Below are positions 13,456-47,975 of a stretch of DNA of 62,743 nt, in pieces. Both the position numbers and the translations under genes were made by a program. Source of the stretch: a virus. The notes under the pieces were generated by a model. It made no database searches. It saw only the letters and a list, made by a program, of their open reading frames with translations, and was not told where the DNA came from. Location of the stretch: IMG/VR virus record IMGVR_UViG_3300025789_000038, positions 1-62,743 of that record; one strand, written 5' to 3'. Position 1 is the stretch's first letter; every line of letters starts with the position of its first letter.

Positions 13456-13460
13456 AAAAC

Positions 13461-16702: not shown

Positions 16703-17001
16703 TGAGTTTACCAAAAATGTTACATGACAGGGTATTAATAAAGCCCGATGAAGTAGAAAGCAGTAACGATGATATGATTGGGTTAGAAAAGAAAAAAGCC
16801 AATACGGGGGAAGTAGTTTCAGTGGGGGATGGCATCTATGCTTTTTCGGGAGATGATGGCAGACCTTTTGTACTTAAAATAGATATGACTTTAAAAGTCG
16901 GTGATAGAGTAAAGTATAATGAAAGGGTAGTAAGTAATTTCTCTATTGATGGAGTTGATTACGTAGATTGTTTTGAGAGAGATGTAATTTGTGTATTATG
17001 A
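16702..17001 (+). CDS. groES: Co-chaperonin GroES
   Basis: A 99-residue GroES (Cpn10). It has the N-terminal LHDRVLIKPDEVE strand, a mobile-loop region (residues 19-34), then NTGEVVSVGDG, LKVGDRVKYNE and a closing VDYVDCFERDVICVL. The mobile loop lacks the usual I-V-L tripeptide and reads DMIGLEKKK, so binding to host GroEL may be altered in favour of the phage GroEL encoded at 17352. It probably forms the heptameric lid for the phage chaperonin that folds virion proteins such as the capsid protein. Confidence 0.9.
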   Translation: MSLPKMLHDRVLIKPDEVESSNDDMIGLEKKKANTGEVVSVGDGIYAFSGDDGRPFVLKIDMTLKVGDRVKYNERVVSNFSIDGVDYVDCFERDVICVL

Positions 17002-27400: not shown

Positions 27401-30400
27401 GAACCCCAAACAACCGAAACTACACAAGCCAAAAGTGAAGATACCGAAGGTACGCAAACCGAAGATTTAAAGTTCCCCAAAAGGAATGATGATTTTGCTT
27501 TCAAGTACTTTAGTGACGAAGAAAAAAATAAATATGCACAACTAGAAAAAGATGGAGATACCGAAGGTATTTCTAAAATGATTGAAGATAAAAAAGCAGA
27601 GTTAATAAGACAATCAGAACATAAGGTTACACCTACGATAGTAGTTGATGGAAAAGAATATTACGGTGCTAATCACGGGGAAGCAATGGAAGCTGCTATT
27701 GCAGACGGGAAAGATATACCTAGTCCAGATACAGAAGAAGGAGAAGCGTGGAGAACTGAACACGGACAATTTAAAACAGCAGACGGGGATTTATTAACTA
27801 GAGAGCAAGCTGAAAATGACCCTAATTATGGGTTTAATCAATCAAAGGATATTCCTCCCATTCAATTATTAGTCCCTACATTAGAACCTGTTACTAAAAC
27901 AGAACAATCCCCTATTGACAACGAACCTTTAAAAGAAGGTGATATATTGGCAGATGGTCGTGAAGTATTAGGCGTAAATGAAGAAAAAGGGCTAATCACA
28001 TTAAGAAAAGATATTGGTGAAGGTAATTTTGAAACACAAACTATCCCACTTAAAGAAGCTACCGATATTGGTAGAAAAACAAAAACAACAACAGATGAAA
28101 GCATCAGCAAAGAAAGAGGTAAAGAAGGTCGCCAAAAAGGCGGTAGAAAAGAAGGTCGCCAAGAAAGCGATAAAAAAGGCAATGTAATTGGTGGGGACGG
28201 TACATCATCTAGTGAAGGTGGTGTACCTCCTACTAATCCTCCTACAAGTAAAGAAAATACCCCCGAAGAAAATAGACAAGTTTGGATAGGGATACAAAAA
28301 GCTATGTTAGGGGACACCGTATTAAAAGTAATGGGAACTTTAGATAGTGTTACAAATAAAGAAACCATACAAAAGGCTATTGATATGCTTTCTGATATGG
28401 CTTCTAATGGCAGTAAGACTATTATTGATGCAGCAAAAGATTATACTGACAAATGGCATGATATATTATTCAAAAAGACATCTAAAGGCGACCCAATATT
28501 AGATAGTCAAGGCAGACCCGAAATTAATAGAGGTGTTGGTATTCCCACTGAATTATTAGGGGCTATGGGTGTTAGACAGGCTTATTTGGCAGATATGCTT
28601 AATAATACTACCGACCTAGAAGAACAAGGTAAAATTGCAGTAGAGATGCAAAGGGTTGACGAAGTTTTAAGGGTAGCACAAAATGAGTTGGGACGTAACT
28701 TTCAGTTTTTACAATCACTATTCAAGTTGGGTAGCGATGGTGAAATATTGTATAGGAGAAATGTTTTATCCAAAGCTATTGACGAAGAAATCCCCGATAA
28801 TAAAGAAGCATTAGATAAGCGTATCGGCGAATTAAAAGAAGGGGATAAGGAAGATATAGAAAAGGCTAAAATGCTAAAAGAAGCCTATGATGAATTAGAA
28901 AAATTAAAGAACAAAACAAAGGCAGCCGAAGAATCTACTCAAAAAGAAGTTGATAGGATTACAAAAGAAGATTTTGACAAGGCTATTGCCGAAGCAGAAA
29001 AAAGAGGTCGTGAACAAGCCGCAGCCGAAAAGAAAAAAGGCAAAACCCCTCAATCTGAAATATTAAAGAAAACAGGGAAAGATTGGGCAAACAAAATTCG
29101 TTCATTAAAGATAGATAATAATAATACTTTAAGTGCAGATATAACATTAGGATTAGGCAGACCAACTTGGAATCTATTAGTAGAATCTGTTGCAAAATTA
29201 GTAGAAGCAGGTAGTGAAATAGGTGCAGCTATATCTAAGGTTTTAGAAGATAAAGAATTTTCTTCATTGAAGAAAGAAGATGTAGAAAAGTCATTAATAG
29301 GGGGTGTTGATGCTAAAACTAAAGAACAAATTGATGCTAACAGGCGAAATGCAAAAGAGTATAAGGCACTTGAAACAGAACGTAACAGGCAAATAAGGGT
29401 TTATAATGACTTAAAAGAAAAGTTAGCTAAATTAGTAGATACAGGCAAAAAAGAGGTAAAAGAGAAAGGTGAAACAAAAAAAGACACGCCCGAAATAGAA
29501 GATTTAAAAAGTAGGATAGAGCAAGTAAAAAAAGATATTTCCGAAAGAGATGCGCACGAAAAGAAAATGCAAGGGCTACAAGATGAATTAACCCGTTTGC
29601 AAAACAGAACCCCAAAAGAGAAAAAAGAAGCAGGAGATAAAGTAGTTAGTGCAGAAGAACAAAAGCTAAAGGATGCTATTGATTTAGAAAGGAAACAATG
29701 GGCTTTAGAAAAGTCGGCTGAAAATAGGATTAAAAATGCCGAAACTGAATTAAAAAGGGTACAGGATAGGATTGAAAACCCAAAAACAGAACCTTCTGAA
29801 AAGAAATATCTTACTGAAAGGGAAGCTGAATTGGCTAAAGAAATTGAAAAAGAAAAGAAAGATTGGGCGCACGAAAAGAAAATGCAAGGGCTACAAGATG
29901 AATTGACCCGTTTGCAAAATAGAACCCCAAAAGAAAAAAAAGAAGCAGGAGATAAAGTAGTTAGTGCAGAAGAACAAAAGCTAAAGGATGCTATTGATTT
30001 AGAAAGGAAACAATGGGCTTTAGAAAAGTCGGCTGAAAATAGGATTAAAAATGCCGAAACTGAATTAAAAAGGGTACAGGATAGGATTGAAAACCCAAAA
30101 ACAGAACCTTCTGAAAATAAATATCTTACTGAAAGGGAAGCTGAATTGGCTAAAGAAATTGAAAAAGAAAAGAAAGATTGGGCGCACGAAAAGAAAATGC
30201 AAGAGCTTGAAAGTAAGTTGGATGATATTAAAAACAGGCGTGAAAAAGCAGAAACCCAAAAAGAAAAGCAAGTTATTAGTGCAGAGGAACAAGCTAAACG
30301 TGATGAAATAGATGAGGCTCAAAAAGAATGGGATAAAGAAAAAAGGGTAGAACGTTTACAAGAAAAACTAGAAAAGGTAAAGCAGCGTATTGTTGAAGAA

Positions 30401-33400
30401 AAATCCCCTACTGAAAAGAAGAAACTTAGTGAAGAAGAAAAGTCTTTATTGCAACAGATAAAAGACGAAAATGCAATTTGGGCAACAGAAAACAAATATG
30501 ATACACATCAAAAATTAGAAGACATATCAAGTGTAGCCAAAGAACAAGGGGTTACTACATTATCCCCTAAAATAGTTGAAGATGGATTAGTTCAAAATCT
30601 TATGGATTCTTATTTAGGGAAAGGCTTAAATAGTTCAGAAATTTTAGAAAGTGCTTTGTCTGACTTAAAAAAAGTATTACCAGATGTAAGCGAAAGACAG
30701 CTATTAGATGCTTTTCTTCGTAAAGGGGATTTTGAACAAAAAACAAAAGAACAAGCTAACAAAGAATTAAAGCAACAAAAAGATGATTTAAGGCAGACCG
30801 CTAATTTGCAATTAGAGAATGATATGATTGCAAAAGGGGAGGAAATATTGAAGGACAAGAGTAAAAAAGATGAAATTAGCGGTTCTGTTGTAAAGATGCT
30901 AAAAGATAAAAAAGCAATGCTTTTACAACAAAAGAGAAATGCAGAAGTTGACCAACAAGTATCAGATATAAACAACCATTTAAAGACTTGGGAAAAGATA
31001 TTAAAAAGCGTTCAATACGAAGGGAACGTATTAGCCAAAATGAAAGCAGATAATAGAGCTAAGATTGACGAAGCCCTTATTAAGAATGGGATTAAGTTAG
31101 ATAGAAGTAGCCAAGATGTTATTCAAAAGAATAGAACTATTGCTAATACTCATAACAATAAGGTTGATGAATTATTGTCTAATCCTAACTTGACAAACGA
31201 GCAAATCAGACTATTAAAAGGGCTTAAAATAAAAGACGTAAATAATGTAGAGGAGTTAGGTGAAAAAATAGACAAGGCAGCTAGAAGTATTCAAACACAA
31301 ATAAATTTAGCTAACCCAACAGACCCGATTTCAAAAGAATTAAAGTCTTTGAAAAATGATTTATTGGAAGGTTTAAGTAAGAGGGACGAGTTTACTAAAC
31401 TTGAAGCAGCAAAACAAAAAATGAGAGGGGATATTAATAGAATGACTAGAGATATTGCAGGCAATAGATTTGCTGATTCAAAAAGTCCTACACAATTAAA
31501 AATAGATAGAGAGTATATTAAGCTACAACACGAAAGAAATATGCTTCGTGCAGAATATGACAAAGCAGAAGAAAAGTTCATATATCAAAATAAGAATAAC
31601 ATAGGGAAAGGGTTGGATTTATTTTTAAGGGCAAGGCGTGGTAATTTGATTTCTTCATTAAGTTCTACTGTATTCAAATTGCCGTTAAGTTCTTTTGTTA
31701 AAATAGGGGGGGATATTCTTTCTACTAATATATCAGGATTGTCTCCTTTAACGGGGGGGATTAGTTATTTAACAGGATTAGAAAAGGCAGTAAGCGCACA
31801 AAAAATATCTTGGAAAGCAGACTATGAAGGGTTGAAAACAACAGCAGGGTTAAGCCTATCAAATGTAAGAGTTGACGAAGCTATTTTGAAAGAAACAAAA
31901 GAGCAAATGGCTAATACTAAAAAGATATTAACAGACCAAAAGCAAGTTTTATTAGATAGAAACAAGGAATTAAAAAAATCTGATGACGAGAAAAGTATTG
32001 ATGAGATTTCAGATAATGAATCTAAAATAAAAGAGTTAGATAGACAGATAGAAAAAAACTCAAACAAGGTTCGTGATATGAAAGTGGAAACACTTTTAAA
32101 AAGTACGGACGAATTATTAAAGTCAACAGCAGATAATTTTTTTAAAGTAAAGGCTGAATTAGAAAAAAATGGAGTTGACTTAAATAAAAGTAAAGAATAT
32201 AAGGTAGCTAAAAAGGCTTTTGATGATGCGGAATACAATAGTGGGCTAGCTTTTATGTATCAATTTATTGGTCACGTTTGGAAGAATAGGGGTGAACAAA
32301 TAATGGAAGGGGCGTACTCTTTTGAAGAGGCTATGGGCGACTTTAAAAGAATGTCTTATGAAGATAGAATGGCTATACATTCTACTAAGTTTGGCAAAGG
32401 AGTAGAAACATTAATATACGGGGTTGATACAATAGGAAGGATACACGCAGCTACTAAAGATATTTCAGCAATGAAGCAGTTTGTTACTGAATACGCAAAA
32501 GCATTAGAAAGGGCAAGTAGGAAAATGGATGCAGGTCAACGTTTGCAAGAGAGTGACAAGTATATCATTATGCAAAAGGCTTTTGAACACGGGTTCAAGG
32601 GGGGTAAGTTTTCAGAAAAAAACGCTACTGTTAGATTTGTTCAAGATGCTTTTAAAAATATAGATAGGTCAATAGAAGAAAAAATGTTGAAGCGTGGTGG
32701 TACTAAAGACTTAAATTACAAGGCTTCAAGATTTGGTAGTGGGGTTGCACAATCTATATTGTTACCCGTTCTTAAAATACCTGCTAATATTGAAAATTCA
32801 GGGTTGTTTAAATATACATTAGGATACGGATTAGCTTTAAAAAGGATAGGTTCAGAAGCGATACGTGCTTCAAAAAATATGGACTATTCGGCACAACAAA
32901 GCATTACCGAAAATATAAAAAGGTTTGGTGAAGCATTTACTAAGCACATGAGTGAATTAGACCCTGACTATGCAGATAAAATAAAAGAAGGATTAAATAA
33001 GGGGCAAGTTGGCTTAGTTACTATGGGGATTGCTGCACACATGATAGCAACGGGGGCTTTAGCTTTTGGAGGCGTTTATTATCCGGGGGCAAGAAAGAAA
33101 AAAGATGCTTATGGTAATGAATTGAATTTTGGTGCTATATCATTAAATGGTAAAGTTTTCGACAACTATACTACTGCTATTTTAGGTCACTTAGATATAA
33201 TGATGCCTTTCTTTATGGCAGCAAATTACATGACTGCAAAAGAAAATCAAGAAAGAATAAATCTTAATGAAGAAAACAGGGGGTTAGAGAAATACACTAA
33301 GAACCCCGAAGCGGTTGGGCTTGCAAATGACATTTTCATGGCAATAGAAGAAAGCCCCGTAAGAAATGTATTATCTTTGGCAGGCACACCCGAAAATGTA

Positions 33401-33565
33401 TATCAAGGTAGTAGTGGAGTAATGGAAAGTTTCTTTTCAGTTGGGATTGCAAAAAGTATAGGAAAAGGTATAGATGACTACAACGGCGACCAAAGAGATA
33501 TTCAAGATTGGAAAGATAGGCTTATGGTAAATAATGGATTAAATTTCTTAGTAAATAAAAAATAA
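24413..33565 (+). CDS. Giant internal virion / large polyvalent-type protein
   Basis: A 3050-residue protein, the largest gene here. Residues 1-110 are disordered and hold two copies of an NPLExxxxKK motif. Residues 500-620 carry hydrophobic, glycine-rich segments. Residues 870-1290 are acidic, ending in a K/G/R-rich stretch. Residues 1600-2060 form a long coiled coil with a 105-residue tandem duplication. Residues 2405-2480 (ARRGNLISSLSSTVFKL) resemble domains found in phage large polyvalent proteins. Near residue 2867 there is a membrane-like helix (GLVTMGIAAHMIATGALAFG). I saw no DxDGD motif, which argues against a virion RNA polymerase. It is probably packaged in the head and ejected with DNA. 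Confidence 0.65.
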   Translation: MATSIRQDTNPLEEWAERKKESVAETKPIKKSIVKSQDKSQPTVSEENPLEDYFKKKDGTTNYTSGSEVSNLQSNQPPTDGQSQLPTSEPKLSFDQNKQKSIKTVEENLGGISEYFKKQGSYDKDFQPFLQGIKSGNPETLKKACDIINTELSNKIDELSKPQESYAGLASMGGGLAGLGTPEVRNEISSESKSQIEKLKKAKIENYNSLLRYAAGNPKDATGKYLSPKNIGDRLNAAGFGVSKDQLELEAKADKSKTNWATIAKQHTDFRKETLGYQTILDDLQSRYDDAKKIYEDNQTEENLKKVNGIADELNNTKSNYNNLDLKYPEVAKKNLASLISDNVSTNRSRADFNFFKPSIEEIKQGFEDIRKESPETAAKYQQVFNSIIQDKQFVDVMGGSTPSSYGQPIVQGGLGGAFSRGLDDVVNLWGVGDILTMKPEDIAAEKLATSYSPQKTSYQKGSDEGRIVVDKEGNTLVKKQNNLSNTWDNIVNLVGEQAPTLIAFGGIESAASKTIGKGVVGTLKGATGLAGEFVEGAAGIEGGTARETTRNAFKFAKGGIAEGLQHAIGTQAGIFATSYGKNYDESIDKFPDTPEGHNQAHAAAALKTFAEGTAFSLMGISPSKLIGGTIEKSINADIDKFITENDFSKIGKEEFAAKFADMYAPKIEKLVSSTVKESLKMGGIGNVNEYIKGKIDQYLTGKQPEESTNDEEFKKQVDIFKSGALMGAVFSALPNMLNFATNGKEYAPSHTETLMHLSQNPEESKWRAQQLFENGTITDARRNEFIKTINTSVNSLNDAIEFARGEGKDFNDLKTQSQQKLLANQFRQRYFKDMADNNPDLKEKAIEEQERLRKEALGLLEDKEAMPISDAFVKGLDIKMVVPKTDESNGGEVKLGSINEIGQNTDKTFIIDGKEVNAEEAHQHILDKATELVDAPRITETEQEILKGYEKRIKEGETLPAKSQKEYESLSKKKELYDKQQSFINQTEDEKSKSAEPQTTETTQAKSEDTEGTQTEDLKFPKRNDDFAFKYFSDEEKNKYAQLEKDGDTEGISKMIEDKKAELIRQSEHKVTPTIVVDGKEYYGANHGEAMEAAIADGKDIPSPDTEEGEAWRTEHGQFKTADGDLLTREQAENDPNYGFNQSKDIPPIQLLVPTLEPVTKTEQSPIDNEPLKEGDILADGREVLGVNEEKGLITLRKDIGEGNFETQTIPLKEATDIGRKTKTTTDESISKERGKEGRQKGGRKEGRQESDKKGNVIGGDGTSSSEGGVPPTNPPTSKENTPEENRQVWIGIQKAMLGDTVLKVMGTLDSVTNKETIQKAIDMLSDMASNGSKTIIDAAKDYTDKWHDILFKKTSKGDPILDSQGRPEINRGVGIPTELLGAMGVRQAYLADMLNNTTDLEEQGKIAVEMQRVDEVLRVAQNELGRNFQFLQSLFKLGSDGEILYRRNVLSKAIDEEIPDNKEALDKRIGELKEGDKEDIEKAKMLKEAYDELEKLKNKTKAAEESTQKEVDRITKEDFDKAIAEAEKRGREQAAAEKKKGKTPQSEILKKTGKDWANKIRSLKIDNNNTLSADITLGLGRPTWNLLVESVAKLVEAGSEIGAAISKVLEDKEFSSLKKEDVEKSLIGGVDAKTKEQIDANRRNAKEYKALETERNRQIRVYNDLKEKLAKLVDTGKKEVKEKGETKKDTPEIEDLKSRIEQVKKDISERDAHEKKMQGLQDELTRLQNRTPKEKKEAGDKVVSAEEQKLKDAIDLERKQWALEKSAENRIKNAETELKRVQDRIENPKTEPSEKKYLTEREAELAKEIEKEKKDWAHEKKMQGLQDELTRLQNRTPKEKKEAGDKVVSAEEQKLKDAIDLERKQWALEKSAENRIKNAETELKRVQDRIENPKTEPSENKYLTEREAELAKEIEKEKKDWAHEKKMQELESKLDDIKNRREKAETQKEKQVISAEEQAKRDEIDEAQKEWDKEKRVERLQEKLEKVKQRIVEEKSPTEKKKLSEEEKSLLQQIKDENAIWATENKYDTHQKLEDISSVAKEQGVTTLSPKIVEDGLVQNLMDSYLGKGLNSSEILESALSDLKKVLPDVSERQLLDAFLRKGDFEQKTKEQANKELKQQKDDLRQTANLQLENDMIAKGEEILKDKSKKDEISGSVVKMLKDKKAMLLQQKRNAEVDQQVSDINNHLKTWEKILKSVQYEGNVLAKMKADNRAKIDEALIKNGIKLDRSSQDVIQKNRTIANTHNNKVDELLSNPNLTNEQIRLLKGLKIKDVNNVEELGEKIDKAARSIQTQINLANPTDPISKELKSLKNDLLEGLSKRDEFTKLEAAKQKMRGDINRMTRDIAGNRFADSKSPTQLKIDREYIKLQHERNMLRAEYDKAEEKFIYQNKNNIGKGLDLFLRARRGNLISSLSSTVFKLPLSSFVKIGGDILSTNISGLSPLTGGISYLTGLEKAVSAQKISWKADYEGLKTTAGLSLSNVRVDEAILKETKEQMANTKKILTDQKQVLLDRNKELKKSDDEKSIDEISDNESKIKELDRQIEKNSNKVRDMKVETLLKSTDELLKSTADNFFKVKAELEKNGVDLNKSKEYKVAKKAFDDAEYNSGLAFMYQFIGHVWKNRGEQIMEGAYSFEEAMGDFKRMSYEDRMAIHSTKFGKGVETLIYGVDTIGRIHAATKDISAMKQFVTEYAKALERASRKMDAGQRLQESDKYIIMQKAFEHGFKGGKFSEKNATVRFVQDAFKNIDRSIEEKMLKRGGTKDLNYKASRFGSGVAQSILLPVLKIPANIENSGLFKYTLGYGLALKRIGSEAIRASKNMDYSAQQSITENIKRFGEAFTKHMSELDPDYADKIKEGLNKGQVGLVTMGIAAHMIATGALAFGGVYYPGARKKKDAYGNELNFGAISLNGKVFDNYTTAILGHLDIMMPFFMAANYMTAKENQERINLNEENRGLEKYTKNPEAVGLANDIFMAIEESPVRNVLSLAGTPENVYQGSSGVMESFFSVGIAKSIGKGIDDYNGDQRDIQDWKDRLMVNNGLNFLVNKK
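29552..30181 (+). repeat. Two tandem 315-base repeats inside the giant gene
   Basis: Copies 29552-29866 and 29867-30181 are nearly identical (a few silent and one K-to-N change). A third copy begins at 30182 but diverges after 22 bases. Each unit is 105 codons, so the frame is kept. Confidence 0.92.
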
Positions 33566-35078: not shown

Positions 35079-36341
35079 ATGACAAACCTAAAGGATAAGA
35101 CAGTTTTGGTGTACGATTTTGGCAATTTTATAGAAGTAGCCCAAAGGTTAAGTCGTGACTTTGGCAGGGTTCTTTATTTTATGCCAACTGTAATAAACGG
35201 GTGGGTGGAACACAATCCCTATGATATAGGTAGGGGAGTTGAAGGTATAGAACGTATCTATGATATTTGGGATTACTATGAAGAAGTTGATTTATGGGTA
35301 TTCACTCATATTCACGAAGGGGGATTGCAAAACTTCCTAAAAGCACAAGGTAAACGTGTTTTCGGTTCGGCTAAGGCAGGTTTATTAGAAACAGATAGAC
35401 TTGGGTTCAAGCAACTATTAAAACAGCTAGAATTACCCGTAAATGGATATGATACGGCTAAGGGGGTTAATGAGTTAGAGGAAAAGTTATCTAAAGTAGA
35501 ACATAAGTATATAAAATCTAGTTTGCGTGGAGACATGGAAACTTGGGAACACAAAAATTCAGTTACTTCTAAAATAGAAATAAACGATTTAAAGCACAAT
35601 TTAGGCATATTCGATACCGAAGAAGTTTATATAATCGAAGATGCAATAGAAGCTGTTGGAGAAATAGGTTGTGACCCGTATGTGGTAAATGGCAAGTTTG
35701 TGGATAATACTTGTACGGGGGTAGAGGTTAAAGATGCTGCTTATGTAGGTAGGATTATGAGTTTAAAAGATTTGCCAAAACAAGTTACAGAAGTAAATAA
35801 GAAATTTGCACCCGTTTTAGAATCTTATGGGTATTGTGGGGCTTTTAGTACTGAAATAAGAGTAGATAAAAAAGGGGTTGGTTATTTTATTGACCCGACA
35901 ATGCGTTTCCCCGAACCTAATACTGCTTTGACATTAGAAATGTACGATAACTATTCTGAAATAATTTGGATGATTGGTGGTGGGGAAATTCCAACAGTAG
36001 AGGCATCTGAAAAGTGGGGTGTTCAACTTATTATAAAATCAGAATCAGCAAAAAAACTTCCCGTTGCAGTTCAATTCCCTAAAAAGTATGCTAAATTTAT
36101 AAAGATAAAAAACCTTGTCGTGGATGATGAAGGTACACATTGGTTTACGCCAAACGGTGAAGGGATGATTGAGATTGGGGCAGTAGTAGCAACAGGTAAA
36201 ACATTGAAAGAAGCAAAAGAAAAGGCTACCGAAATAGCTAAATCGGTTGTAGGTTTTGATATTAAAATAAAGTACGAAGCACTAGACGAAGCGCAATCGG
36301 TAATTGACAATTTGACTAAAAACGGTATTAAGTTTATATGA
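35079..36341 (+). CDS. PurD-like ATP-grasp enzyme
   Basis: A 420-residue protein resembling phosphoribosylamine-glycine ligase and other ATP-grasp enzymes. The N-terminal part (TVLVYDFGNFIEVAQRLSRDFGRVLYF) is a Rossmann-like preATP-grasp domain. The ATP-grasp core holds KRVFGSAKAGLLETDRLGFK, KYIKSS, VYIIEDAIEAVGEIGCDPYV and GYFIDPTMRFPEPNTALT; the last parallels the metal-binding NxRFGDPE of PurD. The C-terminus (VVATGKTLKEAKEKATEIAKSV) parallels the PurD C domain. Such enzymes join a carboxylate to an amine using ATP. Substrate unknown: purine synthesis, nucleobase or protein modification are options. It sits 3 bases before the terminase genes in sense of operon overlap (next start overlaps its stop). 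Confidence 0.75.
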   Translation: MTNLKDKTVLVYDFGNFIEVAQRLSRDFGRVLYFMPTVINGWVEHNPYDIGRGVEGIERIYDIWDYYEEVDLWVFTHIHEGGLQNFLKAQGKRVFGSAKAGLLETDRLGFKQLLKQLELPVNGYDTAKGVNELEEKLSKVEHKYIKSSLRGDMETWEHKNSVTSKIEINDLKHNLGIFDTEEVYIIEDAIEAVGEIGCDPYVVNGKFVDNTCTGVEVKDAAYVGRIMSLKDLPKQVTEVNKKFAPVLESYGYCGAFSTEIRVDKKGVGYFIDPTMRFPEPNTALTLEMYDNYSEIIWMIGGGEIPTVEASEKWGVQLIIKSESAKKLPVAVQFPKKYAKFIKIKNLVVDDEGTHWFTPNGEGMIEIGAVVATGKTLKEAKEKATEIAKSVVGFDIKIKYEALDEAQSVIDNLTKNGIKFI

Positions 36342-36985
36342 TAAACAATTATAGTGAAATTATATCTTACAATGAGGGGTATGATTACTTCGAGCAATTT
36401 CTTAGAAATAGGTATTTGTGGGAAATATTTAAACCGTTATCAGAAGATTTCCCCGTTGCAGAAGTTTTTGTAGGGGTAGTTAAGTTTATCTTATACGGGT
36501 TTTCTTTGGAAAGTGAAATGCTTAATACAGGGGGGATTTCTTGGGATAACTTAGCTAGGAGGATATTTACAAAAGTAGGATTGCCCGAAGTATATTATGA
36601 TGAAGTTGCAAAGCTAAGAAATGATAATTTAAGGCTAAGTATTGATAGGTGGATTAAGTTACAGAATGATGATAACTTTGCCCAATATGTTGCATACAGG
36701 GGGTTAAGGTCACAATTCCTTTCAATAATGTCTTTGCCCGAACCTAAGATTAAAAATGATGATGGCACTACCGATTTGGATGCTTATGCTAAGATAAAAT
36801 CAATAGTAGATGGCAAAATGGCAGCAGCAGAAAACGCAAGGGAATTAATGAATATGATGAATGAAGCTAAGTCGTCTTTTATTCAAAACCACGCAAAACT
36901 AAAAGTAAGTGTTGGGGCTGCAAACGAAATGTCAATGCAAAAAAACACGGCTTCGATAGAGGACTTTATAAATAGTAAGAGATAA
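36338..36985 (+). CDS. Putative terminase small subunit
   Basis: A 215-residue protein whose start overlaps the ATP-grasp stop and whose stop overlaps the TerL start. It has an N-terminal helical part (YDYFEQFLRNRYLWEIF), a middle with RWIKLQNDDNFAQYVAYRGLRSQFL and a long C-terminal helix (DGKMAAAENARELMNMMNEAKSSF). The position directly before TerL supports a small-subunit role, but no helix-turn-helix is obvious, so the call rests on context. Confidence 0.5.
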   Translation: MINNYSEIISYNEGYDYFEQFLRNRYLWEIFKPLSEDFPVAEVFVGVVKFILYGFSLESEMLNTGGISWDNLARRIFTKVGLPEVYYDEVAKLRNDNLRLSIDRWIKLQNDDNFAQYVAYRGLRSQFLSIMSLPEPKIKNDDGTTDLDAYAKIKSIVDGKMAAAENARELMNMMNEAKSSFIQNHAKLKVSVGAANEMSMQKNTASIEDFINSKR

Positions 36986-39321
36986 TGTTAAAAAAGGGGG
37001 TTACATATAATATTCAGCGTAGAATAGGGGAACACGATTATACCAAACCCCCATTGCCTAAAAACACGGATGAAATACTATGGTACAATGAAAAGCCCGA
37101 AAACGCCTATTGGAGAAGATTAGAGTTACCTAGTGTTTTTTATAATTTCGTTCCTAACTATACAGAACTAGATGCAGATGCTACACTACAAGATGAAAGT
37201 GGGCTTTATAAGTCTTTTAATTCAGCAGATAGCCAACTATTCATAGAAACAGTATCGAAAGAATTATATAGGCGTGAACACGGGGTTTTCTTCCGTAACA
37301 AAAATGAAATAGAGTACATTACGGGGCATCATTACTTCACTATGCAGCATTGCCGTTGTTATGGTAAAAGTGCTAGGTATGAAAAGTATGTGTCCACATT
37401 TGGGGATAGTGTGCCAAAAGATTATTTTCTTAGGGTTTATGCAGAATATGGTTATTTCTATAAATACCAACAAGATATTTTCTATTTGATAGACTTGGTT
37501 AATAAGGATGAAAATATACTTGGTGCTTTCATTTCTAAGGCTAAAAAAACAGGGGTTACTTTCCTTTTTTCTTGTTACCTACTAAACAAAACAACCCTTT
37601 ACAAAGGGCAACAAGTAGGTGTAATGAGTATGAGTAAAGATGTTGCCATAACAAGTAACATGATGTACTTTTATCATGCTTTTGATGGATTGCCAAACAT
37701 ATTCAAACCCTCTACTAAAACAGATGCAAGAAGTGAAGGTCATACAATATTTGGGGCAAAATCATTTAGTGGTACTTCTTCACATAAGTCGGCATTAAAC
37801 ACAATGATGCAAGAAAAGGCACTTAATTCAAGAATATTCGTAGCCCCAACCGACCCGAAAGGATTTGATAGCCCTAAAATGACAGACGTTGTTTTAGATG
37901 AGTTTAATAAAACCCTTGCCAAAAGTAACCAACACCCAAAAGAAATATTTGAAACAAACAATGCCACCGTTAAGATGCAAAATGACATCGAAGGCAAAAT
38001 GTGGTTATTTGGATACGTTTCAGAACAAAATGACGTGGGGGTTACAGAAGCAAGGGATATTTTCTTTGGCAGTAAATTACACACAAAAAGAGGCAGTAAA
38101 AGAACCCTTAGTGAATTGATATGCTACCACGTTTCTTCTCTTTATTCATTCCTTAGTTTGATTGATAAGTACGGGGAATGTGACGAAGTGGCGGCGAATG
38201 ACAGTATCGAGGAAGCCTTAGAAAAAGTTAAGACCGACCCTAAAAGATACCTTTCAGTAAAAAGGCAGTTAGCCCGTACTGAAAAAGAGGCTTGGGAAAT
38301 AGGTGGAGAAAGTTCTACATTCAATCCCCTACCAATAATAGCCCAAATAGATAGTGAATTAGAAGATAATGCAAACGGGGTACACGGGATGATACCTGCA
38401 CGTTTGATATGGGATAATGCCGCTTGGGAAATGGGTAAAAAAGACAAACGCCCCAAAGGTAAGTTTACTAAAGTAAGATGTATTCCCCTTTCAGAAGAAG
38501 ATGTACAAAATGGGTTTGAACCCGAATTTTGGATAGATAAGGAAGAATTTTATAGAGGCACTTTCAACGAAAGTTTATTAAGGGGGTACGATACAAACGG
38601 TTCTTTATTGCCCCCAAAAAGATTTAACAACGTAGGCGGTGCAGATACCGTTAAATGGGCAGAAGCAATAAACGAAGGTTCTAAATGTGCTTATGGGACT
38701 ATGAGTATTTACGACCCAATTAGGGATAGTCGTGAAAGAAAGATAGCATCTAAGCGTTTGATTTCAGTTTACTTTGCACGTCCCGACAACCCCCGTGAAT
38801 CTTACGAACAATTAGTAAAGGAAACAATATTCTTTTCTAAGATTAGTATAGTAGAAGCAAACGAACCCACTTATGCAAATATGATGTTGCAAGAGGGGTT
38901 AGGTTACTATATGATATTTAAGGATATGAAAGCCCCTACATTTACCCTTATAACATACGAACCGTGGATGCAATTAGGGGCTGATTTTAACTTTATAGTA
39001 AGGACAAGAAACGCCCACCAAAACGTACTATTAGAAACAATAATAAGAAGTGCTAAAGACTACCTTTATGTAGGTAAAGATGAACCTAATTATGTAGAAA
39101 CAATACACTTTATTCCATTACTTAGACAGTTCTTGGATTTTGACCCCGAAATGACAAAACCTTCGGATTTGGTAATGATGTTTGGGTATTTAGTATTGGC
39201 GCACGATATTTATATGGCTACCATTTTGGGGCGACAAAACTATGTGGAAGATAGTCAGTTTTTCGGTAATTTCTTATGTGCTTTAAATGGTAAATATTCA
39301 AAACCCAATAAAGCCGCATAA
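36985..39321 (+). CDS. terL: Terminase large subunit
   Basis: A 778-residue packaging motor. The ATPase part shows YEKYQQ-type adenine-region sequence (YFYKYQQDIFYLI), a degenerate Walker A SKAKKTGVT near 185, and Walker B VVLDEF near 302. The C-terminal nuclease part has SVYFARPDNPRESYEQLVKETIFFS, ISIVEANEP and a later aspartate-containing FDPEMTKPSD, in line with an RNase H fold. It is longer than most TerL proteins (450-650) owing to an N-terminal extension, as seen in crAss-like and related Bacteroidota phages. It cuts and pumps DNA through the portal encoded at 44661. Confidence 0.8.
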   Translation: MLKKGVTYNIQRRIGEHDYTKPPLPKNTDEILWYNEKPENAYWRRLELPSVFYNFVPNYTELDADATLQDESGLYKSFNSADSQLFIETVSKELYRREHGVFFRNKNEIEYITGHHYFTMQHCRCYGKSARYEKYVSTFGDSVPKDYFLRVYAEYGYFYKYQQDIFYLIDLVNKDENILGAFISKAKKTGVTFLFSCYLLNKTTLYKGQQVGVMSMSKDVAITSNMMYFYHAFDGLPNIFKPSTKTDARSEGHTIFGAKSFSGTSSHKSALNTMMQEKALNSRIFVAPTDPKGFDSPKMTDVVLDEFNKTLAKSNQHPKEIFETNNATVKMQNDIEGKMWLFGYVSEQNDVGVTEARDIFFGSKLHTKRGSKRTLSELICYHVSSLYSFLSLIDKYGECDEVAANDSIEEALEKVKTDPKRYLSVKRQLARTEKEAWEIGGESSTFNPLPIIAQIDSELEDNANGVHGMIPARLIWDNAAWEMGKKDKRPKGKFTKVRCIPLSEEDVQNGFEPEFWIDKEEFYRGTFNESLLRGYDTNGSLLPPKRFNNVGGADTVKWAEAINEGSKCAYGTMSIYDPIRDSRERKIASKRLISVYFARPDNPRESYEQLVKETIFFSKISIVEANEPTYANMMLQEGLGYYMIFKDMKAPTFTLITYEPWMQLGADFNFIVRTRNAHQNVLLETIIRSAKDYLYVGKDEPNYVETIHFIPLLRQFLDFDPEMTKPSDLVMMFGYLVLAHDIYMATILGRQNYVEDSQFFGNFLCALNGKYSKPNKAA

Positions 39322-42300: not shown

Positions 42301-43859
42301 ACAATGCAGAACAAATTTCGTATTATGAAATACCAAATAGTAGGATAGAAATAAAGAACGGTCAAGCACAAACGACAAACATTTTACTAAATCATTATGA
42401 CACATATTTTTTAAGCCGACAAATCCCCGTCCCTACATTACTTACTACAACCCCACTTGTTACTACTATAACAAATACCACCACAACGGGGACGATAGTT
42501 GCATCCCAAGTTCAAACTTTTGACAGTAGCAATTCAATAATTTCTTTAAAAAATTTTGGGGTAAGATTTGAAAGCAAATCCCCTAGCAATACTTGGGGGC
42601 TTAATATTTATAATCAAGGGCGACCATTTACAAGCAATCTCTACGAGCAAGTAATACATAAAATAAATTCAGTAGCCCTAACAGGCACTTTATCTATCAA
42701 CGGTGCTTTGAATTATTTGCAATATTTTTCAGATACATTGATACAAGATTTTGATGTAAAAAATACATTGGGTATTTCGGGGGCTGTATTTGATACGGGG
42801 GTTGTTTGGTTCTTGACACAATTCAGCAACTTTAAAGTAGGGTACAACGACAACCTGTTAAGAGTAGATTCAACAGGAACGGTAAGTGTTGCTTCCGCAA
42901 GTAATGTGTGGGGAAACCCTGAAAGAGAAATAGGGGATGTTTACGGATGCCAACTAATAGACAAGTGTAGCATACAGACTTTAGGTAAATTGACTATGTT
43001 TGTTGATAGGCAGCAATGTGATGTTTTGCAGTTTAATTTTTCTTCTTTCAAATCAATGATTAGTGATGAAAATGAGATACTGCCTAATGTGATAAAAGGC
43101 AAAATAGATAGTTCTTTTAGGGCTAAATTAAAGGCTATTGCAGCAGATGGCACTAAGTTTTTTGTAGGGGGAATAGACCCGCTTGAAAACAAATATCTAT
43201 TGACCGACTTCTCTTTAAATAATATCAGTTACATAAACCAAAGCAGGAATTATACCCCACTAGACAACAATACAACAACATTTGATATTAATACTACCAA
43301 TGTTACGGGGGATGTATCTTTTACGCCCGAAATGTATGCAAGTATTGATGGTGACTTATTGAATAAGCAGTTGTTCACATTTAACAACGGTGCAATATAT
43401 TCCCACCATAACATAAATACGAATAACTCATTCAATGTGTTTTATGGGGTACAATGCGAAAGTATTATTGAAATAGTTTGTGCCACACAAGCATTGTCAC
43501 AAGTGTTCTTCCAAGCACTATCAAATTACTGTAAGCAAAATCTTTTATTTGCAGATAGGATAATAACACAAACGGGTCAAAAGTCTTATTTGTTATTAAA
43601 CAACTTTCAATGGGGTCAATTCTTTAGTTCGGCAGGATTCTTACGGGATATGAATACCCCTACTGATTCCAACACAACCCCAACAGTACTTGGCAATATC
43701 GTTCAAGAGGGTAACCCATTATACGGGCAATGGATACAAATAAGGTTAATAACAGACAGCAGTACTGCCAATAATTATATGGAGTACTTTGGTAGCGAAG
43801 TAACGATGTTTGATTCAAAGCGTGACCCTATATTAGAGAAGGGGCAACTTCGGGAATAA
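39339..43859 (+). CDS. Tail stabilisation-type protein with carboxypeptidase-regulatory-like domains
   Basis: A 1506-residue virion protein. The N-terminal 250 residues (NVTSYESATNEYGD, LYVPFALPSGDNYCIGAKGF, CFIYNSNGNHSIYR) follow the repeat pattern of stabilisation/nozzle proteins of short-tailed phages, which fold as beta-propellers below the portal. Two carboxypeptidase-regulatory-like beta domains appear at about 592-640 (GYVYETSQNGFPQSP, TDHNGFYWF) and 690-735 (GKIILNNSNGEGIPNVPIVL, NDDGTFSL). The rest is beta-rich. It probably plugs or extends the tail. The end overlaps the converging gene by 32 bases. Confidence 0.6.
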   Translation: MQHTNKLIPLKVNADLSAAYFDAYTARYLKNVTSYESATNEYGDIKEGNNAASLKKLQSNELYVPFALPSGDNYCIGAKGFAVTNEVYCFIYNSNGNHSIYRVSASNRTADLVYQNACLNFQLQPQYFIASIVLLPIKLTDPDTGITVIKRDLYWADGFNDAGYLRVDDAIGSQGFNSTIYPYFNGNYDPCSLIRMGFETPDKEIQIAEIPVTSADVGIPNNVLYQGFQFRIRNTNVFGVPSEHGIISDLYFSGVNDCMVSSSTSPRCLSLTFDAGNPFNNSIDVEYRIGNSDQWYKDTTLFLYQGSTVGSWWTRSRNSNVTYNASTNQITYTFCNNGEQTPVSQDETNRTENPIPKSPQVLFELNQKLALANFKQGFSPLSSNILNNCKLTLSETPVTVTATRTITILVAIINEVTGNVNGVFKNGTRGYVWGDPNEALAYKQYFTNIYQSGFIGYLNDGSVAISEQVYWNGGSYSLDETFANQNIVFQRFTFTGVSAGVKVFRLASHLYDPTSGTDFQSTSTTVRGVYQINNNYLNIGQYPFLTAPQNDYGSGILTKELVIDVSNGDYTTFNDTKMMVIADFAANSDLLRVISGYVYETSQNGFPQSPMELIRLTNGHGATSVITDHNGFYWFRSQQAGSVSCGFNFYYNCVQVAVSSSLQGHGMTTSDITINTKDKAYEQMFDLPCNRAIIQGKIILNNSNGEGIPNVPIVLTRGGHTTSNDDGTFSLVCHDDAQNGGVRIDELIISGGSCAFTGINGTTIPTIPITINACTGGCTERVYDIGTVYLEYKSFKSLLTGGKYAYALIPKDGLRAGYAQPIGVLQVPSIPQSQAINAYQTNLQITNNPTFPLDITECTVAVSKELSLSDYVTWIVDKVDFVDNTGAVNIYSPSQIRIWYASLNKFNANNNYNTTCNWQFIPQGQSTPTVGDKVSFILNGDNSFFSKNISAVVKYDTTGQYFLIDYNSELKGLLANAIIRITRPNAINNAEQISYYEIPNSRIEIKNGQAQTTNILLNHYDTYFLSRQIPVPTLLTTTPLVTTITNTTTTGTIVASQVQTFDSSNSIISLKNFGVRFESKSPSNTWGLNIYNQGRPFTSNLYEQVIHKINSVALTGTLSINGALNYLQYFSDTLIQDFDVKNTLGISGAVFDTGVVWFLTQFSNFKVGYNDNLLRVDSTGTVSVASASNVWGNPEREIGDVYGCQLIDKCSIQTLGKLTMFVDRQQCDVLQFNFSSFKSMISDENEILPNVIKGKIDSSFRAKLKAIAADGTKFFVGGIDPLENKYLLTDFSLNNISYINQSRNYTPLDNNTTTFDINTTNVTGDVSFTPEMYASIDGDLLNKQLFTFNNGAIYSHHNINTNNSFNVFYGVQCESIIEIVCATQALSQVFFQALSNYCKQNLLFADRIITQTGQKSYLLLNNFQWGQFFSSAGFLRDMNTPTDSNTTPTVLGNIVQEGNPLYGQWIQIRLITDSSTANNYMEYFGSEVTMFDSKRDPILEKGQLRE

Positions 43860-44601
43860 CAGATGATATATATTTTGATTCCACCACACGGTAATCATTC
43901 CCATTAACGGAAACTATTGTGTTAGAAGCATAGCTAGGGATAGAAATAATATCTTCTTTTTTATATAGCTTTTCATTTGTAACGTAAGCTACTTTAAAAG
44001 CAATGGTTTTTCTTTTACTTAGTTCTTTGGTAGTTTCAAGGCTTTCTTTTTCTTTACGCCTTATTTCTGTACGCAAATCCCAATTAGCAGGGGAGTTGTG
44101 CATCTTGTAGAGGTTATCTTGTTTTGCTTGGTTTAGCTTCCTTATCTTTTCGTCACGACTTAAACGATAAGCAGCCAAACTATCTTCATTCAAGCATATT
44201 TCTTCTTGGTGTAAAAAAGTATAGAAGGGGTGTGGGATTATTTCATTGTCTTTTAAGATGCCGTAGGTTTGGATAAATTCCCCTGCAACTTCTTTAGCCA
44301 ATACATTGAAATAAAAATCTGTTTCTGTTTCATCTACTAAGTAGTGGCTTTTAGTTTCACTTAATGAAGCAGATGATTCTATAAAATGATGGTAAATAAG
44401 TAAATCCCCTATTTCAGCAAGTGGCAGTTGTTTTTTAGCAATATCAGAAATAGATACTATCTCACCACATTGAAGGTTACGGGTGTACCATACAAAAGAT
44501 TGGTGGTGGTATATTTCTTCACCTTCACGGTTTTTAACTAAGGATTCCTTTGAAACTCTAACTATTATATTAGGGGATATGGCGATGTATTTATTGCTCA
44601 T
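43828..44601 (-). CDS. GroES-like protein with a large insertion
   Basis: A 257-residue leftward gene in a rightward structural region. The N-terminal part (IAISPNIIVRVSK, GEIVSISDIAKK, LAEIGDLLIYHHFIE) and the end (KKEDIISIPSYASNTIVSVNGNDYRVVESKYI) parallel the first and last strands of Cpn10, including the GDxVxxP..AGTEVxxxGxxYxxVxxxxI closing pattern. A helical insert of about 90 residues (SLAAYRLSRDEKIRKLNQAK) lies between. It may be a specialised co-chaperonin like T4 gp31. I chose the ATG at 44601. Cpn10 homology is by pattern and needs structural proof. Confidence 0.6.
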   Translation of the reverse strand: MSNKYIAISPNIIVRVSKESLVKNREGEEIYHHQSFVWYTRNLQCGEIVSISDIAKKQLPLAEIGDLLIYHHFIESSASLSETKSHYLVDETETDFYFNVLAKEVAGEFIQTYGILKDNEIIPHPFYTFLHQEEICLNEDSLAAYRLSRDEKIRKLNQAKQDNLYKMHNSPANWDLRTEIRRKEKESLETTKELSKRKTIAFKVAYVTNEKLYKKEDIISIPSYASNTIVSVNGNDYRVVESKYISSVIPEVAPSLI

Positions 44602-44660
44602 TTTTTCTAGTTTAATTAATTCGTGCAAATTTATGTACTTTTACACAATAATTATAATTT

Positions 44661-47141
44661 ATGGACTTATTTGCTTCGGAGTGTTACAAACAGCTTAATC
44701 CAAATAAAAAAGATGCAAAATGGTTTAACGATGTAATAACTATATTCAGACGAGATTGGGTACAGTTAGTCAATCGTGAACGTGCTATTGAAAATAGACA
44801 GATACTATTTTCACAGCAACCAATGGACAATGTAAAGGCTTTTTTTAGCGATAAAGAGTTTTTAGAAAATACCGATTTCGTTCCTTTGGGAATTTGGGGG
44901 CGTATATTCAATATCATCTTGGAAGAATTGCGAAGCGACCCCCCCGAAATAACAGTAAGGGCAAATGATGAATCAGCAATGATGGATAAGCAAGCAGATA
45001 TTAAAAGATTGTCTACTTTTACCCAACATCAAAAAGCAGTATCTGAATTAAATTCAAGGGTAGGATTACCCCCTTTGCCAGCAGACGATACAAAGTTTAA
45101 GACCAACATAAAAGAAATGCTTTTATACGGGTTAGACCCCAATGACAAAGAAGATATAGACTTCTTTCATAGGAATGACTTTATCCGATTAAAGCAAGAA
45201 ATCGCCGCTAACAAAGTAATAAGTGCCGTACTAAATGTAAACAACTACGACAAAGAAATATTAGAGGACAACGTTATAGACATTCTTAGCACAAATACTT
45301 GTACAGTACATAAATATGTTAGCCAAACAACAGGGGAACAAAAGATACAAAGGATATTCCCCGAAGAAGTATATGGCATATTTGGCAATAAACGTGATGG
45401 CTCTAGGGATATTTGTAACGGGTGGGTACAGAATGTCCCATTAAGGGATTTTATCGCAATGGCAGGTCAGGATTTCGACTTTGAAAGGGATTGGTATCAA
45501 TTACTATGGGCTTTAAATTTCAGCAACAACAGCACCTACACTGGTTTTACACAGGGGAATAGGGAATACAACGGGAAACATCACCCAAATTACGAAAGCG
45601 ATAAAGACTATTTCTCACAAGCGCAAGGTTATAGTGGGGAGTTTGGGGGCAAATTCCTTTCTTGGGAACAAGCCTATACTTATAATGTCCAAGTGGGGTA
45701 TATAGAGTTTTGCTCGATAGATGCCACAAAGTCATACCTATCAAAAAAAGATAAGAACGGGAAAGAAATAGAAGTAGGCAAGATTGTCCCTTATGGTTAT
45801 GACTTAGACGACAAAGAAGTTACAGAAGGGTATGTAGTAGAAAATATCACTAACGAGCAATTTTATTATAGTTACTTTTTACCGACTACAAGCATCTCCC
45901 AATGGATATATAATTTCGGCAAAGTAATCTATCAAGATACACAAGGGGTAAACGATGAATATTCTTGTGGGAATATGATAGTTTACCGTAAAGAAGGTGC
46001 AAGCGCAGTAGATATATCCAAGACGGATATTTTCAAGGCAAACCAAGCGGCTTATAGGATATTATGGTTGCTATCAAAAGTACAGCCTAACAAAGAAGAT
46101 TACGATTGGGATGAAGTAATGGAGTTGGCGCAATTATTCAAAAGGGAATACCAACAAGACAATGAAGATTCCCCTATCTTTTCAGTAGGGAATATCTTAG
46201 AGGATATAGTAAAGGTTCAAAAGCAATCACACGTTAGGATTAGGGTAAGACCTAGAATAGATGGCAGAAAAACCCAAGACTATCATAGAATAGAAGTACA
46301 GCAACCCCGTGACCTACAATCAATGTGGATAGAATCAATAGAAAAAACAGCCATTGAAAACATTGCCCAAATGGTAGGGCTTAATGATGTAAGATTAGGA
46401 CAAGTACAAAATGCAAGAAAAGGCTTTAAGGCTTCCGAAATGGAAACAACCCAAAGCGAAAAAAGCACAGGGTATATATTTAGGATAATACAGTATGTAA
46501 AAGAACGTATATGTACTAGGATACTAAACACAACCCAAGATGCAATAGCTTTTGAAGATAGTTTGGCTTGTGATTGGATTAGGTCAATAATAGGGGAATT
46601 ACAGTTCAACAACTTGAAAAACCTAAAAGACTATGCAGATAAAAACAAGGCAGCACATAGATTAGGGTTATATGTAGGTAACTACATTACAGCTATGGAT
46701 AGACAAAAGGTTATCCAAGCAGCAGATATGGCATTGGCTAATCAAGACGGCAAAGGTGGAATAGAATTAAACGAATGGGGAATTATTACCCGTGAAAAAG
46801 ACCCAAGACAAGGGTTAGCATTATTAGAGCAATATCGTGAGAAAGCAAGAAAGCGTACAAGAAAAGAAAAGTTGGAAGAAATAAAAATGCAGCAAGACCA
46901 CCAAAAAGAAATGCAAGCAAACGAAGCTAAAATGCAACAAGCAAAAGATGCAGCAGATATTCAAAAGGCTCAAATCCCTGCACAAGCTATGGTACAAGTT
47001 GCACAACTTAACAATAAGACTAAAGAAGATATTACAGATAAGAAGATAGAAAACGAACCTGCAAAACAACAGACAAGAACGGCTAACCAAAAAGACTTAG
47101 CTACACACAAATCAGATTTGCAGCAACAAGAAAGTTACTAA
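44661..47141 (+). CDS. Portal protein
   Basis: An 826-residue portal, the ring through which DNA enters and leaves. Support: position upstream of scaffold and capsid genes, size typical of crAss-like and related portals, and a layout of N-terminal helices (RAIENRQILFSQQPM), mixed wing region, a long stem-like segment (RVRPRIDGRKTQDYHRIEVQQPRDLQSMW), GLNDVRLGQVQNARKGFKASEM, and a C-terminal coiled, Q/A/K-rich barrel (residues 720-826). It ends at a terminator. No other gene here fits a portal better. Confidence 0.75.
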   Translation: MDLFASECYKQLNPNKKDAKWFNDVITIFRRDWVQLVNRERAIENRQILFSQQPMDNVKAFFSDKEFLENTDFVPLGIWGRIFNIILEELRSDPPEITVRANDESAMMDKQADIKRLSTFTQHQKAVSELNSRVGLPPLPADDTKFKTNIKEMLLYGLDPNDKEDIDFFHRNDFIRLKQEIAANKVISAVLNVNNYDKEILEDNVIDILSTNTCTVHKYVSQTTGEQKIQRIFPEEVYGIFGNKRDGSRDICNGWVQNVPLRDFIAMAGQDFDFERDWYQLLWALNFSNNSTYTGFTQGNREYNGKHHPNYESDKDYFSQAQGYSGEFGGKFLSWEQAYTYNVQVGYIEFCSIDATKSYLSKKDKNGKEIEVGKIVPYGYDLDDKEVTEGYVVENITNEQFYYSYFLPTTSISQWIYNFGKVIYQDTQGVNDEYSCGNMIVYRKEGASAVDISKTDIFKANQAAYRILWLLSKVQPNKEDYDWDEVMELAQLFKREYQQDNEDSPIFSVGNILEDIVKVQKQSHVRIRVRPRIDGRKTQDYHRIEVQQPRDLQSMWIESIEKTAIENIAQMVGLNDVRLGQVQNARKGFKASEMETTQSEKSTGYIFRIIQYVKERICTRILNTTQDAIAFEDSLACDWIRSIIGELQFNNLKNLKDYADKNKAAHRLGLYVGNYITAMDRQKVIQAADMALANQDGKGGIELNEWGIITREKDPRQGLALLEQYREKARKRTRKEKLEEIKMQQDHQKEMQANEAKMQQAKDAADIQKAQIPAQAMVQVAQLNNKTKEDITDKKIENEPAKQQTRTANQKDLATHKSDLQQQESY

Positions 47142-47175
47142 ATAAAAAAGCCCCTAAATAACTAGGGGCTTACCT
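47142..47175. terminator. Intrinsic terminator after portal gene
   Basis: AGCCCCTA (47149-47156) and TAGGGGCT (47163-47170) form a perfect 8-base stem with a 6-base loop, with an A run on the left and T-rich sequence on both strands. It separates the portal gene from the convergent gene at 47154 and overlaps the latter's stop region. Confidence 0.85.
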
Positions 47176-47597
47176 TCTTTTACGAGTTTTTCTTTTACAG
47201 TTTTTAGTATAGCCGAAAGTGTTGATTTTGCTAAACCAATATCTCCATTAAATAGATATTGAAATATCATTTCTCTACTTTCTTCGTATCCTCCATTAGC
47301 CCTTTTTGGTTGTTCTAAACAATCATAAAACTTTTTAAGGTAGTCAAAATCTAATTTAAGAGAGTTGTCTATATCTTCGTACATTTCGCCCCTTAATTTC
47401 ATTTCTATTGTTTTCCAAGACCAACCATTGTCCCAAAATTCTTCTATTAAATGTAGCATAGAAACTTCAACCCCTGTTTTTTTAAAATTGGCAACAGCGA
47501 TAGATATGGGAACCCCATCTTGGTAAAATAGTTTACCAACACCCTTTAAGCACACAAACCTTCCTCCAATATATTCTACTAAAAATTCACTATTCAT
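47154..47597 (-). CDS. Hypothetical protein, partner of RHH regulator
   Basis: A 147-residue protein without a recognised family. An N-terminal beta part (FLVEYIGGRFVCLKGVGKLFYQDG) is followed by helices (VSMLHLIEEFWDNGWSWKTIEM, YLKKFYDCLEQPKR, GLAKSTLSAILKTVKEKL). It starts 3 bases after the RHH gene and shares its promoter. The arrangement of a small regulator gene followed by an unknown partner resembles toxin-antitoxin or accessory (moron) modules, but no toxin fold was identified. Confidence 0.65.
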   Translation of the reverse strand: MNSEFLVEYIGGRFVCLKGVGKLFYQDGVPISIAVANFKKTGVEVSMLHLIEEFWDNGWSWKTIEMKLRGEMYEDIDNSLKLDFDYLKKFYDCLEQPKRANGGYEESREMIFQYLFNGDIGLAKSTLSAILKTVKEKLVKEGKPLVI

Positions 47598-47600
47598 AAT

Positions 47601-47924
47601 TTATATTTTTTCAATTAAAACGGGTTGAATAATACCCCTATCAATAATTGTGTTGATAGGGGTATTTGTTTTTTGGGATATTATCTTTAATGCCTCGTGT
47701 TCGTCAGTAGATATATAAGTACTACTCCAAACCCTTTTTTGACTAACCATTTCAGTTATACATTCGGGACATTCATTGAAATCCCTTATCAAAGTTATTA
47801 TTTTCTTTCTAAGATAGGAACGTATAGTAACCTTTGGGTTATCCCTTTTAATTTTTTCTTCAAATGCTTTCCACTCGTTTTCAGTCCTAGTGGGTTTTAA
47901 TTGAACAACGTTCCTTTTTGCCAT
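47601..47924 (-). CDS. Ribbon-helix-helix-like regulator
   Basis: A 107-residue protein. The C-terminal half reads WSSTYISTDEHEALKIIS then KTNTPINTIIDRGIIQPVL, the strand-helix-helix pattern of ribbon-helix-helix DNA-binding proteins. A CPEC motif in the middle could bind metal. The N-terminal half is basic. It is the first gene of a leftward pair with its own consensus promoter inside the rightward structural block, so it may control that promoter. Confidence 0.65.
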   Translation of the reverse strand: MAKRNVVQLKPTRTENEWKAFEEKIKRDNPKVTIRSYLRKKIITLIRDFNECPECITEMVSQKRVWSSTYISTDEHEALKIISQKTNTPINTIIDRGIIQPVLIEKI

Positions 47925-47944: not shown

Positions 47945-47975
47945 CAAAGGTAATGGAATGTTATTTAAGAACAAA
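47945..47975 (-). promoter_or_regulatory. Consensus promoter of the leftward RHH pair
   Basis: Minus-strand TTTG (47975-47972), a 19-base spacer and TACCTTTG (47952-47945). It matches the host-type consensus fully, so the pair can be transcribed by unmodified host polymerase, independent of the late transcript. Confidence 0.72.

Follow-up and report, generated by a model that had tools for sequence, protein, structure and literature searches.

Results

A leftward gene under purifying selection beside the portal gene

The window analyzed here, which is the whole 62,743-nt stretch of phage DNA in IMG/VR record IMGVR_UViG_3300025789_000038, encodes on its minus strand a 257-residue protein (P0001; 43828-44601) whose reading frame runs intact from an ATG at 44601 to a stop at 43828, just as the sequence-only reading had described it. 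Copies of this gene are present in two IMG/VR contigs (L002 and L003; 98% protein identity), and scans for close relatives of P0001, the portal protein or the terminase yielded only two contigs, ~98-99% identical, while alignment-based terminase scans recovered diverse relatives with no intermediates. Since L002 and L003 carry identical changes, they amount to one comparison with the window rather than two, and in this comparison we counted 12 synonymous and 5 non-synonymous differences in the P0001 gene, where neutral change would give 3.8 non-synonymous for every synonymous one (binomial p = 1.3e-5). Given this balance of changes between ~98% identical relatives, the P0001 frame is a real gene under purifying selection.

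The P0001 gene overlaps the 3' end of a gene for a 1506-aa protein by 32 bases, and is transcribed divergently from the portal gene (44661-47141, plus strand; PHROG 6547, 8e-17), with a 59-base intergenic stretch that is unchanged in L002 and L003. The consensus of the Bacteroidota -7 promoter box is TAnnTTTG, and a promoter-like match to it, TAAATTTG (44626-44633, minus strand), lies 24 bases before the P0001 start codon and is identical in L002 and L003; the window holds 102 such matches, and this one is a weak call that amounts to a consensus match. The large terminase gene is at 36985-39321 (plus strand; PHROG 6681, 1.4e-25). Two more leftward genes are found among the structural genes at 47154-47924, one of which has an Arc-like repressor match (PHROG 3180, 3.7e-5) and is preceded by a TAnnTTTG box at 47952.

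A family of putative tandem co-chaperonins in related Bacteroidota phages

By terminase (PHROG 6681) and portal protein (PHROG 6547), the window phage has distant relatives in Cellulophaga phage phi46:3, the Flavobacterium elemoviruses and MW202828, and phi38:1 shares the same gene order. Related Bacteroidota phages encode a 'co-chaperonin GroES' of about 176-226 aa (PHROG 13932), whose carriers include phi46:3, phi38:1, the elemoviruses and hundreds of IMG/VR contigs. Such genes lie at or near the terminase start in phi46:3 (gp092, 200 aa), elemoA (gp33, 180 aa), phi38:1 (gp089) and MW202828 (unnamed); they are annotated as 'co-chaperonin GroES' or 'chaperonin cpn10', and those that we tested match PHROG 13932.

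The Pfam Cpn10 match of phi46:3 gp092 falls in its second half (116-198, 5e-8), and the first half of elemoA gp33 (14-64) matches the single-domain GroES family PHROG 3188 (3e-4), together suggesting that the family is a tandem double Cpn10. Among 73 aligned family members, 70 match PHROG 13932 and 46 match Pfam Cpn10. Searched as a family profile against PDB sequences, the second domain matches GroES (3.2e-8) and Cpn20 (5.5e-5), and the first domain finds no match there. When aligned with hhalign against a small set of single-domain GroES that included E. coli GroES as one row, the first domain scores 35.9, compared with 11.4 for the reversed alignment and a maximum of 17.2 in 100 column shuffles. 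Relatives often carry GroES-like loops in both domains (SGLEL in domain 1, SGLFL or SSLIII in domain 2), and the family shares a signature, GDxxxxHH, in which the residues at P0001 positions G65, D66 and H72 are each kept in 72 of 73 members and H71 in 67.

A family scan of IMG/VR yielded at least 579 confirmed stretches. Of the 244 loci with a terminase, 210 carry the gene (hereafter the tandem gene) upstream and on the terminase strand, 2 carry it elsewhere (the window and L097), and in 32 it was not detected. Most of these 32 loci have little sequence ahead of the terminase gene, or are copies of the window's relatives that were cut before the tandem gene or fell below the score threshold, and L120 holds a shorter match that was removed by the length filter. 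A few loci (L203, L141, L179 and L140) extend 1-4 kb upstream of the terminase with no tandem gene found, so its universality is not established. The window's gene departs from the usual context, being inverted and downstream of the terminase. A family member in L097 (14070-14615) is likewise downstream and on the opposite strand, apparently through a separate relocation.

Placement of P0001 in the family and its domain layout

Searched alone, P0001 has no significant match in Pfam, PHROGs or PDB sequences and no relative in the phage collection, and the stored PHROG 13932 model does not find it. An earlier proposal was to search residues 1-90 joined to 195-257; we instead searched the pieces one by one, with no significant match in Pfam, PHROGs or PDB sequences, and also compared the two parts on either side of the domain border with the family separately, as described below. 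From 4947 ORFs, an iterated family profile (94 non-redundant members) does pick out P0001 with 18.5 bits (E = 3.7e-4), a score that none of 5000 shuffled versions reached (maximum 13.2), and the only other window ORF that it finds is GroES. The profile alignment consists of two collinear segments, one over the first domain and the other over those parts of the second that surround the helices; single-sequence hhalign of P0001 against the family gives weak, short matches that are also collinear, and four MAFFT modes place P0001 alike. Identity to relatives is 12-21%. The signature is present as GDLLIYHH (residues 65-72; 44386-44409, minus strand), while P0001 departs from the family at two conserved positions, having S in place of a proline (column of residue 52) and K in place of a domain 2 glycine (column of residue 215). 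On this sequence evidence, P0001 is a divergent member of the phage tandem co-chaperonin family.

Domain 1 (residues 1-118; 44248-44601, minus strand) matches the N-terminal domain profile at 16.6 bits, a score reached by none of ~1950 shuffles, and its assignment as Cpn10-like from sequence is firm. A predicted mobile loop (residues 17-43, containing NREGEEIYHHQS; 44473-44553, minus strand) has a length of 28, compared with 26-31 in relatives, and pLDDT below 50 at residues 21-25 and 27-41 of the alignment-based model described below. Domain 2 (residues 119-250; 43852-44247, minus strand) has a collinear profile match that is weak on its own (6.2 bits, reached by 9 of ~1890 shuffles, p about 0.005), and this match and the predicted fold are suggestive of a second Cpn10-like domain. 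P0001 does not have a mobile loop in each domain: that of domain 1 is present, and the alignment places a helical hairpin of 57 residues (139-195; 44017-44187, minus strand) at the mobile-loop position of domain 2, where the loop spans 66 residues in P0001 versus 6-32 in 71 relatives. The alignment-based model has its two helices at 139-168 and 171-195, and the single-sequence model places them almost identically.

An AlphaFold2 model of P0001 built with the 73 aligned members (pLDDT 67.6, pTM 0.64) contains two sets of strands, although it was steered by the family alignment and so is not independent proof of it; the single-sequence model (pLDDT 37) is unusable for the fold. The best PDB match of the alignment-based model is Chlamydomonas Cpn20 (7ekq_R; Z 10.1, 157 residues, rmsd 4.1), which covers both domains and spans residues 1-250, followed by Cpn10/GroES structures and T4 gp31 (Z 6-7.6) over residues 118-255 only. 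The best viral match is a phi18:3 'Chaperonin cpn10' (8e-6).

These results bear out the sequence-only reading in its view of P0001 as a second GroES-like protein, given the family profile match, the annotation of relatives as 'co-chaperonin GroES' and the resemblance of the model to Cpn20, Cpn10/GroES and T4 gp31. That reading had also suggested structure prediction of the monomer and a fold search, which returned these folds but with two domains where it had expected one. The Cpn10-like pattern that it recognized is real, but combines elements of two Cpn10 domains, the first strand with its GD turn coming from one and IPSYASNTIVSVNGNDY with the final strand from the other; similarly, its ~90 extra residues do include a helical insertion, but also hold the rest of domain 1 and the start of domain 2, the 57-residue hairpin itself lying within domain 2. 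Most likely, P0001 comprises two Cpn10 domains in tandem, with the hairpin in place of the second GroEL-gripping loop.

Chaperonin genes that accompany the tandem gene

The window also encodes a single-domain GroES (16702-17001, plus strand; Pfam Cpn10, 1.3e-12), a possible ring partner of P0001, and a GroEL (17352-19028, plus strand; PHROG 5725, 1e-127; Pfam Cpn60_TCP1, 3e-55), a possible chaperonin partner. We searched 23 records and obtained a Cpn60 match in 17, all of which encode a single-domain Cpn10 as well. Neither a Cpn60 nor a single-domain Cpn10 was detected in five contigs of 55-71 kb, which may be fragments (G014, G015, G016, G018 and G019, the records of L194, L188, L199, L235 and L236, respectively). 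Four of these five contain one Cpn10 match, in frames of 193-203 aa that are the tandem gene itself; G014 has no Cpn10 match, though the tandem gene is present in L194. The complete phi46:3 genome encodes a single-domain GroES together with the tandem protein and has no Cpn60 match. A phage GroEL thus seems not to be required for the tandem protein, and where the tandem gene is kept with no phage GroEL detected, host GroEL would be its natural partner. The earlier suggestion of two lids for one chaperonin fits the window, which encodes both GroES and GroEL; relatives carry the tandem lid also where no phage GroEL was detected, so the partner can be that of the host. As that suggestion had it, the two lids might serve different clients, for example capsid protein.

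Proposed role and alternative explanations

We consider it fairly probable that P0001 is a divergent tandem Cpn10 co-chaperonin in which the grip of domain 2 is replaced by the hairpin, and that it serves as a lid on GroEL. In this mechanism, two GroES-like domains joined head to tail would form the co-chaperonin; domain 1 would keep its flexible loop at the GroEL-binding position, and domain 2 would present the helical hairpin where its own GroEL-binding loop would be. P0001 would then sit as a lid on GroEL, either the phage's own or the host's, probably in one ring with the phage single-domain GroES, and the ring would close the cage over phage proteins, probably making P0001 a second lid for their folding. 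There are precedents for such a ring and such a client: chloroplast Cpn20 and Cpn10 form functional mixed rings, functional lids can likewise have six or eight domains (PMC4242682, PMC5780408), and capsid protein folding in T4 needs gp31 (PMC3012670).

The single Cpn10 fold of the sequence-only reading, in which ~90 helical residues are inserted between the first and last strands and the protein forms a homo-heptameric lid, agrees with the single-sequence secondary structure (strands, two helices, strands) and has a precedent in T4 gp31 as a modified single-domain phage lid (PMC3012670). We nonetheless judge it very unlikely, as residues 1-119 alone match a complete first family domain, the C-terminal ~60 residues correspond in the alignment to the second domain rather than to the end of the first, and the model has two strand sets with a Cpn20 match across its length; the evidence instead favours a tandem double Cpn10 with the hairpin replacing the domain 2 mobile loop. 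An even more basic objection would be that P0001 is no Cpn10 relative, with a chance profile match and a model that follows a wrong alignment. The profile match is indeed only 18.5 bits with a weak domain 2, and single-sequence searches found no match, yet the shuffles never reached this score, the GDxxxxHH signature is kept, the four MAFFT modes agree, the terminase and portal put the phage in a lineage that carries the family, and GroES is the only other window ORF that the profile picks out, all of which make such a coincidence very unlikely.

Two further alternatives accept the fold but not the function. A tandem Cpn10 protein could have left chaperonin work and now act in packaging or head assembly, with the fold as its scaffold, as might be expected from a gene that lies near the terminase throughout the lineage, that is kept in the 55-71 kb contigs with no GroEL or single-domain GroES detected, and whose GDxxxxHH signature is, to our knowledge, not a feature of canonical GroES. 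Against this, GroES-like loops are kept in both domains of relatives (SGLEL, SGLFL), the presence of a single-domain GroES beside the tandem protein in phi46:3 makes host GroEL a possible partner, and a terminase neighbourhood would equally suit a folding factor for late proteins; we regard this explanation as unlikely. P0001 could also cap the host Clp protease and so protect phage proteins, in the manner of Chlamydomonas Cpn11/20/23 on ClpP, a complex that has been described (PMC8889267) and whose Cpn20 chain is the best structural match (7ekq_R). This match may simply reflect 7ekq being the sole solved tandem Cpn10, and we consider a protease cap very unlikely. A lid on GroEL is the simplest reading.

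Relation to known co-chaperonins

P0001 resembles the PHROG 13932 proteins (phi46:3 gp092, phi38:1 gp089 and elemovirus gp33) in its collinear domain order and GDxxxxHH signature, and their phages belong to the same lineage as the window phage by terminase and portal. It differs from them in its low identity (12-21%), its length (257 versus about 176-226 aa), its domain 2 hairpin, and the displacement of its gene to the opposite strand. Like the Cpn20 of chloroplasts and apicoplasts (7ekq chain R), P0001 is predicted to be a tandem Cpn10 pair and coexists with a single-domain Cpn10; unlike Cpn20, it is a phage gene product with a hairpin for the second mobile loop and an activity that is predicted, and the likeness observed is one of layout. 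With T4 gp31 and RB49 CocO it would share the role of a phage-coded GroES-like lid, likely for phage proteins, and the model matches gp31 at Z 6.0-6.3, but gp31 is a one-domain protein that forms a heptamer, whereas P0001 most likely has two domains. The phage's canonical GroES (16702) has the Cpn10 fold that is predicted for each domain of P0001, but is a single domain encoded by a separate gene beside the phage GroEL.

That these phages carry a family of co-chaperonins already annotated as GroES is the known part of our findings; what is new is the tandem layout of the phage proteins, described in none of the papers that we searched, and its hairpin variant in the window phage. GroEL of phi38:1 has been detected by mass spectrometry, in a paper that makes no mention of GroES (PMC13288928). 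Tandem Cpn10 lids have been discussed as a plastid speciality, and the puzzle that they pose is how a lid with an even number of domains can sit on a chaperonin of seven-fold symmetry. With a widespread phage family of this layout, found together with a phage GroEL and single GroES in some cases and with neither in others, mixed lid rings could be tested independently and in a genetically tractable system. The family suggests that this lineage relies on a lid dedicated to its own proteins, and the hairpin variant hints that a tandem lid may do without one of its two grips. More speculatively, and rather doubtfully, Bacteroidota phages may have evolved a two-part lid independently of plastids, with tandem Cpn10 and single-domain GroES together filling the seven positions, and with one arm here having given up its hold on GroEL and gained a helical hairpin to touch the client or adjust the cage.

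Judged by eye, three consecutive window genes at 12805-15637 appear to encode a methyltransferase and glycosyltransferases (one fucosyltransferase-like), and a gene at 35079-36341, two genes upstream of the terminase, appears to encode an ATP-grasp ligase-like protein. The region 24413-33565 encodes a protein of 3050 aa in which charged, coiled-coil-like segments recur.
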